A stretch of DNA of 64,000 nucleotides from Algicola sagamiensis DSM 14643 (GTDB lineage: Bacteria; Pseudomonadota; Gammaproteobacteria; Enterobacterales; Alteromonadaceae): positions 1 through 64,000 of the forward strand of contig NZ_KB894505.1 in NCBI RefSeq assembly GCF_000374485.1, in the 5' to 3' direction. The first letter of the stretch is position 1; every line of letters starts with the position of its first letter. This document shows, one piece after another, positions 51,781-58,701 of this stretch. The notes beneath the pieces are model-generated. The model was not told the DNA's origin. It searched no databases and saw only the letters and a list, made by a program, of their open reading frames with translations. A program made the position numbers and the translations under genes.

Positions 51781-52251
51781 ATGTTGCGTGAACTACTACA
51801 GCAAATGTCAGAGCACATTGAGGAAAATGCAATTTCTCTGGATGAAAATGGGCATTGTGCACTTCTGATTGACCAGCAATTTCCGGTCTATCTTCAACAG
51901 AATAATGACCAGGAAGTCGTTTTTTTTGCAAATTTACCAACCTTGGCAGATGTTTGTTCAAAAGATATTTATGAAGAACTACTCCATTCAAATTTCTTCG
52001 GGCTTGGTGCGAAAGGTTTTGCATTGGGTTTGAATCCACAGACCCGTGAAGTTGTTCTTTCACGAAGAGTATACGAATCAGCGTTAACCTTCGAAAGGTT
52101 TGAAACATTATTAGCTGATCTCGTAGAAGCAATGGCTTTTTGGAAAATACAACTTGAAAATTATCAACACAACTTAATCGATACAATAACGAGTGCTGAT
52201 CAAGTCACGAATATTAATCAAATGGATGCAACGATGATGACAAGGGTCTAA
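51781..52251 (+). CDS. CesT/Tir-family type III secretion chaperone
   Basis: A 156-aa acidic protein with the class I chaperone pattern: an N-terminal helix (LRELLQQMSEHI), alternating strands (CALLIDQQFPVYL, EVVFFANLP), the YEELLHSNFFG helix, and a strand pair (KGFALGLNPQTREVVLSRRV) before a long C-terminal helix. Such dimers bind the N-terminal part of an effector and bring it to the secretion ATPase. It ends 14 bases before the 514-aa candidate effector, its likely client. Confidence 0.82.
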   Translation: MLRELLQQMSEHIEENAISLDENGHCALLIDQQFPVYLQQNNDQEVVFFANLPTLADVCSKDIYEELLHSNFFGLGAKGFALGLNPQTREVVLSRRVYESALTFERFETLLADLVEAMAFWKIQLENYQHNLIDTITSADQVTNINQMDATMMTRV

Positions 52252-52265
52252 GGGAGATAACATCA

Positions 52266-53810
52266 ATGACAAATTTAAATGTGACAGGGCAATACAACAG
52301 TAAAGATTTCTTCTCTGTTGCTTCAGCAAGTGACACTCGTGTTGTGGCAAAAGACGGGAAAGTGGAAGCGGCTGGTTTTTTTGATAAGGGCTCTCGTTTG
52401 AGCACGATCTGTAATTTAGCTGATGGTCACTCGACAGGTGACTTTCTCAAGGAAAATAAAACAACTGGGGCTGAATTAGGGATTGCACTAAAAAATGACT
52501 TTGATCACCTGGGTGATAAAGCATTTTCTATTGTCAGAGCAAAAGCCTGGTCTGGAGAGCCAATTACCCAAAGAGATGTTGCGGAAATTAAGCGATTGGT
52601 CCCTCAGTTACAAATTAATGCAGAACAATTCAACAAGCTAACGATGTTGTTCCGATCTGTTGCAAGTGATAATCGCTTTATTGAGGTCTTAAAGCACATT
52701 GCTCCGGGGGAAAAAGAAGGCGGAGCAAGAGGATTGGCAGAGAAGTATGTCATGGGGCCAATCGATGTTATGAAAGATTCCCATAACCATGATGATGTTG
52801 TGATTCAAAAGCTATCGAGAAAAGAGTCGACAGAAAACCTGATGAGTGTCGGGAAGTTTGTATTAAGTGTTCTTATCCCTCCTTTAGGATTAGCCATTGC
52901 AATGCATAAAATATGTGAGTCTTCTGATAAGGAGGCTGCTCACGGTGCAATTCTTTCCGTACTTGCTCAAGAAAAATCTGGATTAAAAAATGATTTTGCA
53001 AGTGCGTTGGCGAATACGCTTTATGGTGGCCATGAAAAAGATGCGACAAACACGGCCGCAAAGTTGACTGTGACCACCACAACATTACCTTTGGGTACCG
53101 TCATGACAGGAACAAGCCTGGGGATGGGGGAAATGATTAAAGAGCAAATTGCAGAAGCTGCTTGTTGTGCAACAACAGCGATGGTTGCAAAAGCTGGCTA
53201 TTCCTCATCGATTGCTGTTGCTAAACAAGGTGTCAACTATACGGGTGTTGCGCAACTTGCGGAGATGGCTGGGAATGATGGGATAAGGGAAGACCTTTCG
53301 ATCCTACCTCGGATGGAAGTTGCAGATAAAGACTTACATCAAAGTTTTGACTTACATCAAAATGCGAATGTAGTTCGAGCGTTATTACTTTATCTTGGGC
53401 CAGAGGAAAACTCCGATATCACGGAAAACCCTGATACACCTAAGGAGTGGAAGGATCTAGAAAATGCACGTATGGAATTAAAAAGGGAACTAGGTTCATT
53501 CCCACAAGAAGACCTGGTCCCTGGCGATCAAACTCAGATAGCGCTTAAAGATCACAATAAAGCTTTAATAGAATCGTTGAGCTTCGGGGCATTACATAAT
53601 CCACTCAAAGGAAATCGTCAGTTTCATTCAACCTTTTTGGATGATTTGCAGCGTGATACTTCTGAGCCAGCAAAAAGTAAAGCTTTTATTCCATTGGAAA
53701 AAAGAGAGATAGAGCGCGCGGAGCTCATGCATGATTACCCCCAGGAAGATGGTACAAAAGGTACACCGAGTGCATTGCGGATGTTATACGCAGCAGAAGG
53801 TTGGTTATAG
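52266..53810 (+). CDS. Candidate type III secreted effector, unknown family
   Basis: A 514-aa protein not recognised. It has a polar Ser/Thr/Asn-rich N terminus without signal peptide (as expected of type III substrates), a hydrophobic stretch at about 198-214 (FVLSVLIPPLGLAIAMH), small-residue-rich segments at about 265-320, and a charged C terminus. Its position just after a CesT-like chaperone and before the filament genes makes it a likely effector; the hydrophobic stretches would allow host-membrane insertion. A translocon accessory is the alternative. Confidence 0.6.
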   Translation: MTNLNVTGQYNSKDFFSVASASDTRVVAKDGKVEAAGFFDKGSRLSTICNLADGHSTGDFLKENKTTGAELGIALKNDFDHLGDKAFSIVRAKAWSGEPITQRDVAEIKRLVPQLQINAEQFNKLTMLFRSVASDNRFIEVLKHIAPGEKEGGARGLAEKYVMGPIDVMKDSHNHDDVVIQKLSRKESTENLMSVGKFVLSVLIPPLGLAIAMHKICESSDKEAAHGAILSVLAQEKSGLKNDFASALANTLYGGHEKDATNTAAKLTVTTTTLPLGTVMTGTSLGMGEMIKEQIAEAACCATTAMVAKAGYSSSIAVAKQGVNYTGVAQLAEMAGNDGIREDLSILPRMEVADKDLHQSFDLHQNANVVRALLLYLGPEENSDITENPDTPKEWKDLENARMELKRELGSFPQEDLVPGDQTQIALKDHNKALIESLSFGALHNPLKGNRQFHSTFLDDLQRDTSEPAKSKAFIPLEKREIERAELMHDYPQEDGTKGTPSALRMLYAAEGWL

Positions 53811-54046: not shown

Positions 54047-55132
54047 ATGACAATGCAAATTAATGCAGGTGTGACGAACAACCTGCAAGTAGGGAATACT
54101 GCAAATATAAATCTTCAAGATTTATTTATGACCGTAATGACGGAACGCTCAAAAATTTTAGATGAACAAATTAGAGGCCAAGCATCAAAAGTGCAAGGTC
54201 AGAATGACAAACTAAGGCAGATGAATGAGTTGGTGTCTCAGGTTCGATTAGGGCATTTTTCTCAACCAACAAATCAGACGCCGTTTTCACAAAAAGAGCT
54301 GTCAAATGGAGATGAGTTCTTAAATTTAGGAGATGGATACGGGGTTATCGTTGAACAAACTGGTGCGAATCGTTCGTGGAAAATTGTTGAGTACGAAATG
54401 GATAAGCACGGTAACCCAGTTTTGGATACTAACGGTGATCCAAAGATAGCTTCTTCCACGCGTATCTGGGGTGATCCGCATGTTGATGAAGCTGACGGGC
54501 GCTGGGACTTTAAAGACCAGTCGTCATTTATATTACCAAATGGTACGAAAATAACAGTCGCAACAACAGACTGGAATAATAATGAAAAAGTATCGGACGC
54601 ATTATATATTGCACGTGGCAATGAGCAGATTAAAGTCTCAAACTTGTCAGATAACTCTGGTACAGACGGTGTTGCGAATGACACGTTTGAGATAACCCAT
54701 GATGGGACACTGTTTTCTGACAAAGATATTAACGATGGTGCGGTGTTTGTAAGTGCAACGGGCAAAGTTAATGACTGGAAACAGTTGCAGGGCAGCGATC
54801 TGACGCAAGGCGATAAAGTCAATTATAATGCGCAAACTGGTGAGTATTATACAATGTCACTGACGGATGCAAATAGGGCGTTATTAAATGAAATCGGTTT
54901 CGATTATACGTCATTTGCAAATGGATCAGTCATAATAATGGATGAGACTACGCTTGAAAGTTTAAAGCAGGGTATCGGAAGTTTTACTGATTCTTTGACT
55001 GGTAACTCTCAGCTAGAGATGACGAAGTTACAATCTGTGATGGGCAAATACAATCAATCGTTTGAACAGTTATCAAACTTTTTATCGAAGTATCAAAGCT
55101 CACTGGATTCTATAACTGGTAACTTACGCTAA
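54047..55132 (+). CDS. EspA/SseB-like filament protein with inserted DUF1521 autocleavage domain
   Basis: A 361-aa protein. Residues 22-66 (helix) and 300-361 are homologous to the short EspA/SseB-like product encoded at 55496, sharing GKYNQ-F--LSNFLSKYQSSL at the end. Between them, about residues 95-270, lies a domain with WGDPHVDEADGRWDF (141-155) and FILPNGTKITVAT, the signature of DUF1521, also called the metal-ion-inducible autocleavage (MIIA) domain. In NopE1 of Bradyrhizobium, cleavage occurs at GD/PHVD; here that motif is residues 142-147 (bases 54470-54487). No signal peptide. RBS AGGAG precedes the ATG. This predicts a secreted filament or tip subunit that may cut itself when it meets Ca2+. 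Confidence 0.8.
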   Translation: MTMQINAGVTNNLQVGNTANINLQDLFMTVMTERSKILDEQIRGQASKVQGQNDKLRQMNELVSQVRLGHFSQPTNQTPFSQKELSNGDEFLNLGDGYGVIVEQTGANRSWKIVEYEMDKHGNPVLDTNGDPKIASSTRIWGDPHVDEADGRWDFKDQSSFILPNGTKITVATTDWNNNEKVSDALYIARGNEQIKVSNLSDNSGTDGVANDTFEITHDGTLFSDKDINDGAVFVSATGKVNDWKQLQGSDLTQGDKVNYNAQTGEYYTMSLTDANRALLNEIGFDYTSFANGSVIIMDETTLESLKQGIGSFTDSLTGNSQLEMTKLQSVMGKYNQSFEQLSNFLSKYQSSLDSITGNLR

Positions 55133-55180: not shown

Positions 55181-55480
55181 ATGTCAAAGCAAACAACAGA
55201 GCAGAAAGTTGAAGAAACTTTGCGTCAACAAGAAGATATTATGGAGCAGGCATTGGCAATGCTCCAAGCGACAGAAGATCTTTTTGCAAATTATGGTGTA
55301 GAGCGAGAGGCACTAATGTCATTGGAAAAATTGAGTCCAGCTCAACGTCAGCAGGTTGAGGAAGAGCAACGTAAGTTTTTTCAAGAGTTAGATGTTGAGG
55401 TCAAGCATGCTGTCGATCAAAAGAAAGCAGAGCTATCACCAAGACGTTCTGGGCCAAGACGTAATCGCGTATTTATTTAA
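55181..55480 (+). CDS. Small helical type III chaperone (SseA/CesA-like)
   Basis: A 99-aa, fully helical, charged protein (residues 5-85 coiled-coil-like) with a basic C-terminal tail (SPRRSGPRRNRVFI). Size, composition and position between two EspA/SseB-like genes match SseA of SPI-2 and CesA/CesAB of the LEE, which keep filament subunits from polymerising in the cytoplasm. Sequence similarity by eye is weak, so the call rests mostly on context. Confidence 0.6.
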   Translation: MSKQTTEQKVEETLRQQEDIMEQALAMLQATEDLFANYGVEREALMSLEKLSPAQRQQVEEEQRKFFQELDVEVKHAVDQKKAELSPRRSGPRRNRVFI

Positions 55481-55495: not shown

Positions 55496-56119
55496 ATGTC
55501 ATCAACACCTGCATCAACTGGAAATTTCCCAAAACCGGATCCGATTGGCTCGGGTCCATTACAAACTAGTTTTGACCAATATCAGCTCTCTCTTGATGAG
55601 CTAATGTGGCAGGTACAAACAGATCGAGCCAATATTCTTGATGATCAGGTTCGTCAAGAGATTGAGGAGATCCGAAGAAAAAATGGAATTTTGAAAGAAG
55701 CAAATAAATTCTTACAAGAAGCAAGGATACAGCATAACTCGATAGAAGACGATGATGGCAAAGCCACAATGTCATCAGATATGTACGCCTTCTTTAAAAA
55801 GGAAGGTGTATCAATGCCTTCAAGTACTGCGACAGCTAAGGCGGATGAAGTCTATGAAAAGTATAAGAAAGGTGAAATTTCTAAAGATCAATTTGACGCT
55901 CATTTTGAATCAAATCCGGTTGAATTTGATAAAAATGGATGGGAAAAAATCATCAATAATACAAGTACAACGATCGACTCTTTAACATCAAATTCACAGC
56001 TGGATATGGCATCGTTGCAAGCGAAGATGGGTAAATACAACCAGACATTTGAAGCGTTGTCTAACTTCTTGAGCAAATACCAAAGCTCTTTGGGCACGAT
56101 TATCGCAAATTTACGTTAA
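55496..56119 (+). CDS. EspA/SseB-like type III filament/translocator protein
   Basis: A 207-aa protein close in length to EspA (192) and SseB (196). Helical N-terminal part (about 28-80, DDQVRQEIEEIRRKNGILKEA), a variable centre, and a C-terminal helix (162-207) for coiled-coil packing of the filament, with NSQLDMASLQAKMGKYNQTF. It lacks the DUF1521 insert of its paralogue at 54047. RBS TTTGGAGTAG precedes the ATG. It should form the extracellular needle extension linking needle and translocon. Confidence 0.75.
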   Translation: MSSTPASTGNFPKPDPIGSGPLQTSFDQYQLSLDELMWQVQTDRANILDDQVRQEIEEIRRKNGILKEANKFLQEARIQHNSIEDDDGKATMSSDMYAFFKKEGVSMPSSTATAKADEVYEKYKKGEISKDQFDAHFESNPVEFDKNGWEKIINNTSTTIDSLTSNSQLDMASLQAKMGKYNQTFEALSNFLSKYQSSLGTIIANLR

Positions 56120-56190: not shown

Positions 56191-56676
56191 ATGACTGAGC
56201 AAGTCAGTGAAGCAGCAGAAGATGTTACTAAGTTACTTGAAGAGTTTCTTGGCAAAGGTGGTACCTTTAAAGATTTGAAAAACTTTAGCGATGGCAGTAT
56301 GGAAGCAATTTATAATGTTGCTTACAATTTATATCAAGTTCAAAAGTATGAAGACTCTCTAAAGATTTTCAAATTCTTAGGCTTCTTTGATCATTTTAAT
56401 AAGAAGTATTTCATGGGCTTGGCAGCATGCCATCAAATGCAGCAAAACTATCAAGAGGCAGTTGACGCATATTCGTATGCTGGAATGCTTGATGTAAATG
56501 ACCCGCACCCGCCGTTATATGCAGGCGAGTGTCATTTAGCAATGGCAGATTATGAAAAAGCGGAAAGTGGATTTTATGCAGCAGTCGAGTTTGCTGGAGA
56601 TAATCCGGATTACGCTCAAACTAAGTCAAGGGCACAAAGCCTTCTTGAGCTGGTTAGGGCCAAACAAGAGAAGTAG
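56191..56676 (+). CDS. LcrH/SycD/SscA-family TPR chaperone of translocators
   Basis: A 161-aa class II chaperone with three TPR-like units: YNVAYNLYQVQKYEDSLKIFKFL, YFMGLAACHQMQQNYQEAVDAYSYAG, and PPLYAGECHLAMADYEKAESGF. This pattern is the LcrH/SycD family, which holds the hydrophobic translocators before export. It lies directly before the SseC/YopB-like gene (9 bases). RBS GCAGGAG. Confidence 0.92.
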   Translation: MTEQVSEAAEDVTKLLEEFLGKGGTFKDLKNFSDGSMEAIYNVAYNLYQVQKYEDSLKIFKFLGFFDHFNKKYFMGLAACHQMQQNYQEAVDAYSYAGMLDVNDPHPPLYAGECHLAMADYEKAESGFYAAVEFAGDNPDYAQTKSRAQSLLELVRAKQEK

Positions 56677-56685
56677 GTTAGTTAT

Positions 56686-57846
56686 ATGGCTATCAACAAA
56701 GTACCAAATGTCGATATGTCTCCGCAGGCATTTTTGGAAGGCAATCTCCAAAGTGAAGCACATCGACAGTCTACAGAAGCGCAGGGTGTGATCAAGGAGT
56801 ATTTAGATAAAGACCCAGATCTTGTTGTTTCAAATGGGAATGATTTAAAACCCCAAAACGCAAATCAAAGCACTTATCAACCACCAATTGAAAAACCGAT
56901 ATATGGGAAGATAAAGTCGGAGAGGCTAAAAGAAAAGCTATCTGATATGGAAGATCTCATAAGGGAATTATTTGGAGTGAACCAGACTCTCTCTGATGAA
57001 CGTCTAGTGCATAACTCGGAACAAATTCGCAAAAAAATGGATAGTCGTGAAGAGCTAAATAAAGAAAAGCTGGCGAAAATTGATGAAGCTATCAAAAAGC
57101 AAGAGGAAGCGAAAAACCAAGGTATTTTTGCGAAAGTATTTGGCTGGATAGCGACTGTTGCTTCAGTTGTAGTCTCAACGGTAATTGGTGCGATGTTAAT
57201 CTTGGCAGCTCCGCTTGCTGGCCCGTTTGCGCCATTTGTGGCAGCTGCAGGAGCATTGCTGATTGCTAGCGCTGCACTGCAATTAGTGGCTGCTATCTCT
57301 GCAGAAACGGGCGATTGGTTGAATGAAGCCGTGGCCGATGTACTTGTATTTGGTTCAGAGCTCTTAGTTGGTATGGGTATTTTGGACAAACCTCTTTCTC
57401 ATGAAGATGCAATGAAAGCTGCTCCTTGGATAGTTACCGCTACCGTCATCATTATGGCAATACCATCAATGTTTGCTACTGGTGGTGCATCTTCGCTTGG
57501 TCTTGGTGTATCAGCTGGAGGTAAAGCTGCCTCTGCTGCTGCAATGTTTGCAAGCAGAGGTGGCAATTTAGCTAAAGCAGGAGCACAAGCTACTGGTGCA
57601 GTTGCTCAGATCGGGGCGGGTGCTGCCAATATGGTTGCTGCCACAACTGGATATAAAGCTGAACAGTTAAGTATCCTAGCGGAAAAAATTGATGCGGCTA
57701 TGCAAAAAATTATGTTCGTTATAGGTGACCTGCAAAAGGTAATTAAGGATGTTTTAAAGGATATGGAGGAAACTGGATTGAAGATTGCTGAACATCAGCG
57801 TTTATCTGATGATTCAAAACATTTTGTAACCAGTAACCTTAAATAA
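56686..57846 (+). CDS. sctE: Major type III translocator, SseC/YopB/IpaB family
   Basis: A 386-aa pore-forming translocator. Residues 75-145 form a charged coiled coil, 150-205 a long hydrophobic hairpin (VFGWIATVASVVVSTVIGAM and ALLIASAALQLVAA), 247-275 a second hydrophobic segment, then a helical C terminus. This arrangement is that of SseC/EspD/YopB. It inserts in the host membrane with the SseD-like partner. It is the client of the chaperone encoded just before. Confidence 0.88.
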   Translation: MAINKVPNVDMSPQAFLEGNLQSEAHRQSTEAQGVIKEYLDKDPDLVVSNGNDLKPQNANQSTYQPPIEKPIYGKIKSERLKEKLSDMEDLIRELFGVNQTLSDERLVHNSEQIRKKMDSREELNKEKLAKIDEAIKKQEEAKNQGIFAKVFGWIATVASVVVSTVIGAMLILAAPLAGPFAPFVAAAGALLIASAALQLVAAISAETGDWLNEAVADVLVFGSELLVGMGILDKPLSHEDAMKAAPWIVTATVIIMAIPSMFATGGASSLGLGVSAGGKAASAAAMFASRGGNLAKAGAQATGAVAQIGAGAANMVAATTGYKAEQLSILAEKIDAAMQKIMFVIGDLQKVIKDVLKDMEETGLKIAEHQRLSDDSKHFVTSNLK

Positions 57847-57879: not shown

Positions 57880-58701
57880 ATGGTAGTACATAATACTGGT
57901 CATGTCGGCCAAGACCCGAGGCTTCTTCAACAGTCGGGTGAGGAAAACCAGAAGGTACAAGCAAAGAGCCCAGCTGATCTTAGTCAGGTCGCAACTGTAA
58001 CTATGTCGAAAGAGGGTGAATTAACAGTCAAAAAAAATGATGGTAACATCCTAGTTTTCAGTCCACCGTTACTGGATCCTCCTGATGGTAATGTTTCAAT
58101 AGTTGATAAGAGCGATGCAGAGAACTTTTTCGAAAGATTATCATCTGACAAGAAAGCATTAGCAGACTTGGCTGAGATCATGGTTCTATTCCATGAAATT
58201 GCGCAACATATGCGTGATACATCAAAAGAGGTAAGAACATCTGAGCGTGAGTTAGAGCTCTCAAAAGCATATGAGGCTGCAGACAAAAGGATGGAGGCGG
58301 CATATGACCGTTATGTGGGATCAATGTTGGCTGCCGGCGGGCAAATGGCGGCTGGTGGCTTAAACGCGTTTGGTGCATTTAGATCTGCATGGAAATCATT
58401 CGGCTCAGGCGATAATGCACAATCGTTGTCTCAGGCCACAAATACATTTTACCAAGGTTTTGCACAAATATTAGAAAGCTCTATGAAAATGGGGTCTTCA
58501 GGATTTGAGCTGTCTGGTGCAACGAAAGATGCTGAAGCAATGATAATGGATGGTTTGAAGAAGACGCACGGTGATAAAGCTCAAGATCAAGATGTAATGT
58601 ATAATGACATGGCTCAGTTTCTTCGTGACATAAGGGAAACACTTAAAGAAGTTAAAAGACTAGAATTTGAGGCCGAGAGTCAGATGATACGACAGGGCTA
58701 A
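57880..58701 (+). CDS. sctB: Minor type III translocator, SseD/EspB/YopD-like
   Basis: A 273-aa protein with a disordered N terminus (1-50), helices and one hydrophobic, glycine/alanine-rich segment at about 145-170 (GSMLAAGGQMAAGGLNAFGAF), then amphipathic helices to the end (YNDMAQFLRDIRETLKEVKRLEF). Length and position after the SseC-like gene fit SseD/EspB. It ends the operon, 18 bases before the terminator. Confidence 0.8.
   Translation: MVVHNTGHVGQDPRLLQQSGEENQKVQAKSPADLSQVATVTMSKEGELTVKKNDGNILVFSPPLLDPPDGNVSIVDKSDAENFFERLSSDKKALADLAEIMVLFHEIAQHMRDTSKEVRTSERELELSKAYEAADKRMEAAYDRYVGSMLAAGGQMAAGGLNAFGAFRSAWKSFGSGDNAQSLSQATNTFYQGFAQILESSMKMGSSGFELSGATKDAEAMIMDGLKKTHGDKAQDQDVMYNDMAQFLRDIRETLKEVKRLEFEAESQMIRQG

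Follow-up and report, generated by a model that had tools for sequence, protein, structure and literature searches.

A 64,000-nucleotide stretch of the Algicola sagamiensis DSM 14643 genome (contig NZ_KB894505.1, positions 1 to 64,000; hereafter the window) carries, at positions 54047..55132 of the forward strand, a gene whose 361-amino acid (aa) product, read from an ATG start, combines filament-type ends with an inserted DUF1521/MIIA domain, and a plain EspA/SseB-like partner protein of 207 aa is encoded further downstream. In our judgement it is slightly on the probable side that this fusion protein co-assembles with the plain protein in the tip filament of a type III secretion system and nicks its own Asp143-Pro144 bond on meeting external calcium. 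If this is true, a filament with this domain would alter itself only once it is outside the cell, and the pairing of a plain subunit with a calcium-sensing, self-cutting one, which two phyla retain, would render the injectisome tip filament responsive to its environment. MIIA domains, so far described in secreted effector-type proteins, would then gain a second role. No open-access paper describing a filament subunit with a DUF1521/MIIA domain was found in a literature search that covered mostly titles and the beginnings of abstracts; the parts are known, and what appears to be new is their joining in a paired filament-type subunit.

The 361-aa product matched the Pfam family DUF1521 (PF07481) at residues 135-262 with 64.9 bits against a cut-off of 23.6 (E = 1.2e-17), and this was the sole DUF1521 match in the whole 4.34-Mb genome. 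The result confirmed the original prediction, which from the letters alone had placed a DUF1521/MIIA domain in the middle of the protein; the motif WGDPHVDEADG was found at residues 141-151 as claimed, with PNGTKITVAT at residues 164-173. The GDPH tetrapeptide occupies residues 142-145 (54470..54481), and cutting is predicted between Asp143 and Pro144, a site demonstrated for a relative only (PMC6506597; this and the other papers are cited here from excerpts). That both ends match the neighbouring product was also borne out, residues 315-361 being identical to the plain protein at 35 of 47 positions (E = 1e-19) and residues 21-70 at 15 of 50 (E = 2e-8). In the structure model of the fusion, which has a predicted local distance difference test (pLDDT) score of 77.7, an N-terminal helix at residues 23-67 (54113..54247), where the N-end profile also matched, and a C-terminal helix at residues 300-360 (54944..55126), where the identity to the plain protein lies, flank a beta domain at residues 81-271 (54287..54859). 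Five predicted strands (residues 81-140) stand N-terminal of the GDPH cut. The inserted domain is acidic (32 Asp/Glu versus 16 Lys/Arg in 195 residues), and the protein has no cysteines to tie the cut halves. Its position between the two helices agrees with the earlier proposal that the cutter sits where EspA has its variable region, the EspA loop being a region of hypervariable residues that tolerates insertions (PMC12607632). The expected helices at both ends were thus present in the model, but EspA was not among the rows shown in the structure search with that model, which excludes nothing; a sequence search of solved structures, in which the fusion and both profiles served as queries, returned no row with E < 0.05.

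The ends of the two proteins were compared across genomes by setting the last 50 residues of each fusion against every plain protein, in 15 genome pairs with both genes. The results showed that the same-genome partner was best or tied best in 14 of the 15 pairs; the exception was Photobacterium marinum, whose own partner was outscored by those of three congeners. Identity averaged 71% in own pairs versus 35% in other pairs (nine representatives, or lineages; 100,000 permutations, p = 1e-5), and a tree holding the ends of 12 fusions as a single clade was rejected by the approximately unbiased (AU) test (p = 7.5e-5 for the C ends and 2.1e-8 for both ends). The two copies in genome G332 (Vibrionaceae), one plain and one inserted, share 81% and 76% identity over their two ends, and the insert of about 167 residues enters at a single point. 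The idea that G332 holds an unrelated second invention was rejected, because the fusion profile spans residues 12-346 of 347 (E = 1.2e-50), which makes it a divergent member of the fusions; its plain copy gave a sub-threshold NCBIfam SseB match (1e-4). Judged from the sequences, the matched ends would reflect either gene conversion or repeated domain insertion. Either process is easiest to understand if both proteins must fit one structure, and co-assembly of the fusion with the plain subunit would be the simplest inference.

The plain partner (55496..56119, forward strand like all genes described here) was modelled with a pLDDT of 80.5 as two helices, residues 33-82 and 146-206, with a variable loop between them. 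Comparison of this model with 350,542 PDB chains by Foldseek gave as best row the EspA filament of enteropathogenic Escherichia coli (EPEC; 7khw), with an E value of only 0.087. Neither the plain protein nor the fusion matched Pfam EspA (PF03433), and among 14 plain relatives a single one did so, below threshold (E = 0.0065, 16.8 bits versus a cut-off of 23.4). The predicted resemblance to EspA, part of the original description, therefore rests on the partner's structure model and the gene order and not on family membership, and 'EspA' as a family name does not hold.

The genes beside the subunits form the set that accompanies EspA-type proteins, namely a small chaperone and SycD-, SseC- and SseD-type genes. 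A small chaperone-like protein of 99 aa (55181..55480) takes the SseA/CesAB/Btc22 position, as in relatives, where a gene stands in the same place. Its assignment as a clear Btc22 was rejected since the NCBIfam score of 24.6 bits (E = 2.7e-5) is far below the cut-off of 100. It is one of four chaperone-like proteins (the others are at L108:14267-14572, L105:2424-2771 and L019:9448-9792) in which a basic stretch is followed by Phe-Ile at the end, a possible family signature. Downstream of the plain gene lie a SycD/LcrH translocator chaperone (56191..56676; TIGR02552, E = 1.8e-44) and an SseC-family translocator (56686..57846; PF04888, E = 1e-15), both above cut-off, and an SseD/SctB-like translocator (57880..58701; NF052420, E = 9.3e-8, and NF038055, E = 1.5e-7, both below cut-off). 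An injectisome is encoded on another contig of the genome, where SctV, SctC, SctN and SctR passed their cut-offs and an SctF-like needle protein narrowly missed its own. The island is bounded upstream by a CesT-family chaperone (51781..52251; PF05932, E = 3.5e-18, above cut-off). Right after it, a 514-aa open reading frame (ORF; 52266-53810) encodes a candidate secreted protein without a Pfam family, which showed a weak match to NCBIfam NF042907 (E = 1.5e-4), far below cut-off. Promoter predictions were fewer than the shuffled mean, and the terminator count was within about one standard deviation of the shuffled mean.

Fusion and plain clusters are rare overall. Among 5.8 billion proteins searched, 29 matched, and 12 of these aligned over 92-100% (P0002-P0013). 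Relatives were also collected from one genome per species with the bait [RK][IV]WGDPHV, and the best 80 of 170 were analysed; all 80 have GDPH by construction, because the bait contains it. Both filament-end profiles matched in 19 of these 80 loci and in none of the other 61 (the end-profile filter left out L093, L098 and L099). The 19 both-ended fusions belong to Pseudomonadota, including Thalassomonas, four Photobacterium, Competibacteraceae, Kistimonas, Parendozoicomonas and Sansalvadorimonas, and to Acidobacteriota, namely Sulfidibacter, Acanthopleuribacter (two loci) and a Holophagae genome. A plain partner and then SycD and SseC follow the fusion in 12 of these loci, and the small gene between fusion and plain partner was recognised in eight of these 12 and, additionally, in the L007 region re-read as L109. 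No plain partner was recognised near the fusion in the remaining seven loci, which are of the Endozoicomonadaceae type. In most of the Endozoicomonadaceae-type loci L011, L012 and L015-L018, small chaperone-like ORFs flank the fusion on both sides, and translocator genes are not nearby. In nine genomes of the Parendozoicomonas family with the closest fusions, plain-size matches were found elsewhere, in frames of 207-225 aa. The plain profile matched in three of 369 gammaproteobacterial genomes (once in a 48-aa frame), the fusion profile in five of 395 from the family to which the window belongs, and DUF1521 in seven of 296 Vibrionaceae genomes, four of these matches being fusions. One plain-only cluster, G559, was found.

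GDPH is invariant in all 31 aligned fusions, 19 of which had been found through the GDPH bait (the L004 row starts one codon ahead of its ATG). Outside Endozoicomonadaceae, fusions found without this bait kept it as well: 12 of 12 database proteins, four of four in Vibrionaceae and five of five in the window's family, the window included. Evidence weighing against self-cutting as a general property came from the family of Parendozoicomonas haliclonae, in which a profile search finds the fusion in 37 of 37 genomes: GDPH is retained in 10 and lost in 27 that keep the inserted domain, implying that such a subunit does not depend on cutting in every lineage. In eight GDPH-less genomes (L149-L156) the fusion relatives are about 680 aa long, the former MIIA domain having gained some 300 residues. 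The GDPH state changes once on a quick tree of 51 fusions, which was computed with the motif columns excluded and has long branches for L071, L125 and L019. Not included in this tree were L145, which shares its genome with L156, the window entries L146-L148, and L105; L108 entered it 50 residues shorter, and more internal starts were taken for L004, L006 and L071, the start codons of the long relatives L108, L006 and L071 being among several that are uncertain. GDPH has also been lost from two non-filament DUF1521 copies, L098 and L099. The Vibrionaceae genome G082 has three DUF1521 copies (L096, L098 and L099); GDPH is present in one of them, and the other two read SDPY or NDPY at this place. 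By these comparisons the putative cutter is strongly kept and is not indispensable, and the lineage with the insert and without GDPH provides a natural control.

A course of events can be proposed from the published chemistry of the domain. The MIIA domain of VIC_001052 from Vibrio coralliilyticus is disordered without Ca2+, binds two Ca2+ with a dissociation constant at or below 3.6 uM and then folds, and it cuts after the Asp in GDPH, Mg2+ being without effect (PMC6506597). The acidic domain of the window protein would likewise be unfolded at the low Ca2+ of the cytosol and could therefore be exported, so that the subunit passes the needle. Its helices would enter the filament beside plain subunits with the domain on the surface, where external Ca2+ would fold it and the Asp-Pro bond would be broken. 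The N helix and five strands would then be on one chain, and the remainder and the C helix on the other. Because five predicted strands precede the cut and because a GDPH-cut VWD domain is stabilised and more protease-resistant (PMC10880436), we favour a nick in place: the two chains would probably stay together as a folded, nicked and locked surface decoration rather than be shed. By analogy, cleavage at Asp143 may even pass via a reactive aspartic anhydride that staples inserted subunits covalently to their neighbours or to the host surface, a very unlikely extension. The FrpC module behind NeissLock, also triggered by Ca2+, cleaves via an aspartic anhydride able to ligate a target (PMC7846742), and a review describes what GDPH yields in FCGBP as a reactive anhydride (PMC9354016). 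If this were true, the filament would be a self-activating covalent anchor, inert until it is outside the cell.

The original prediction went further than a nick in place, proposing that calcium cuts exported subunits and that the halves separate, whereby the filament is trimmed or capped or its fragments are released. Release of both fragments is drawn by the authors of the MIIA study, according to a figure legend (PMC6506597), autocleavage is needed for NopE1 function (PMC8367979) and no disulfide could hold the halves of the cysteine-free fusion; however, strands 81-140 would have to leave the domain, and the stabilisation of the cut VWD domain also argues for cohesion. Judged by the model, shedding and capping would be less likely than a nick in place, which weakens this part of the claim, and we regard the account as a whole as unlikely. 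It is also decidedly doubtful that the inserted domain serves only as decoration, that is, as a calcium-binding or antigenically variable filament head in which self-cleavage is incidental or absent. The 27 Parendozoicomonas-family genomes with the domain and without GDPH, eight of them with the domain much enlarged, speak for such a head, but the loss was a single event on the tree and the unbaited fusions elsewhere all retain the motif.

The ends need not belong to a filament at all, since the proteins could be LcrV-like needle-tip subunits, or the fusion a NopE-type effector whose ends serve just chaperone binding and export. Pfam LcrV matched five of 14 plain relatives, in L010 with 25.5 bits against a cut-off of 25, and NopE and VIC_001052 are effector-type MIIA proteins. 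The order lcrG-lcrV-lcrH-yopB-yopD is compatible with the gene order of the window too. However, in the 10 plain relatives scanned in detail, the four with LcrV matches have them solely at positions 251-322 of the 323-position profile, the last helix; plain proteins are just 160-230 aa long; VIC_001052 lacks both ends; and both end regions of the fusions, beyond an export signal alone, track the partner. These findings make a tip or effector role improbable. Taken together, the observation behind the original prediction is confirmed and its interpretation partly supported, with a subunit that would be nicked within the filament as the preferred reading.

Among known systems, the VWD domains of mucins and FCGBP share weak matches with the inserted domain, but these fall in two different registers and do not establish homology; the MIIA relative, unlike them, is disordered without Ca2+, and a VWD family search gave no match for the domain or for the controls. 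NopE1 and NopE2 of Bradyrhizobium are type III-secreted DUF1521/MIIA proteins whose Ca2+-dependent autocleavage is required for function, but they are described as effectors inside plant cells (PMC8367979), unlike the proposed filament subunit. VIC_001052, recognised here as L094/L106 by its length of 370 and eight residues named in PMC6506597, resembles the fusion in carrying DUF1521 and its GDPH and in lying within a type III secretion cluster. It adjoins SctN-SctU-type genes rather than a translocator operon, and no plain partner was recognised nearby; because it lacks EspA-like ends, the fusion differs from it in architecture, and the idea that the fusion is nothing but the VIC_001052 of a different genome was rejected. 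Bsp22 of Bordetella, likened to the plain partner by helix positions and not by sequence, has helices 26-74 and 144-204 and a permissive loop, close to the 33-82 and 146-206 of the partner, and the excerpt seen mentions no inserted self-cutting domain (PMC12607632); the weak resemblance of the 99-aa window protein to Btc22 is a further likeness. EspA of EPEC and SseB of Salmonella pathogenicity island 2 (SPI-2) are, like the plain partner, short proteins with two long helices, EspA being its best Foldseek row. The SPI-2 order is chaperone-subunit-SycD-SseC-SseD, and that of the window operon is alike. What sets the window apart from them, besides the missing Pfam EspA match, is that the subunit occurs twice, once plain and, next to it, once with an insert.
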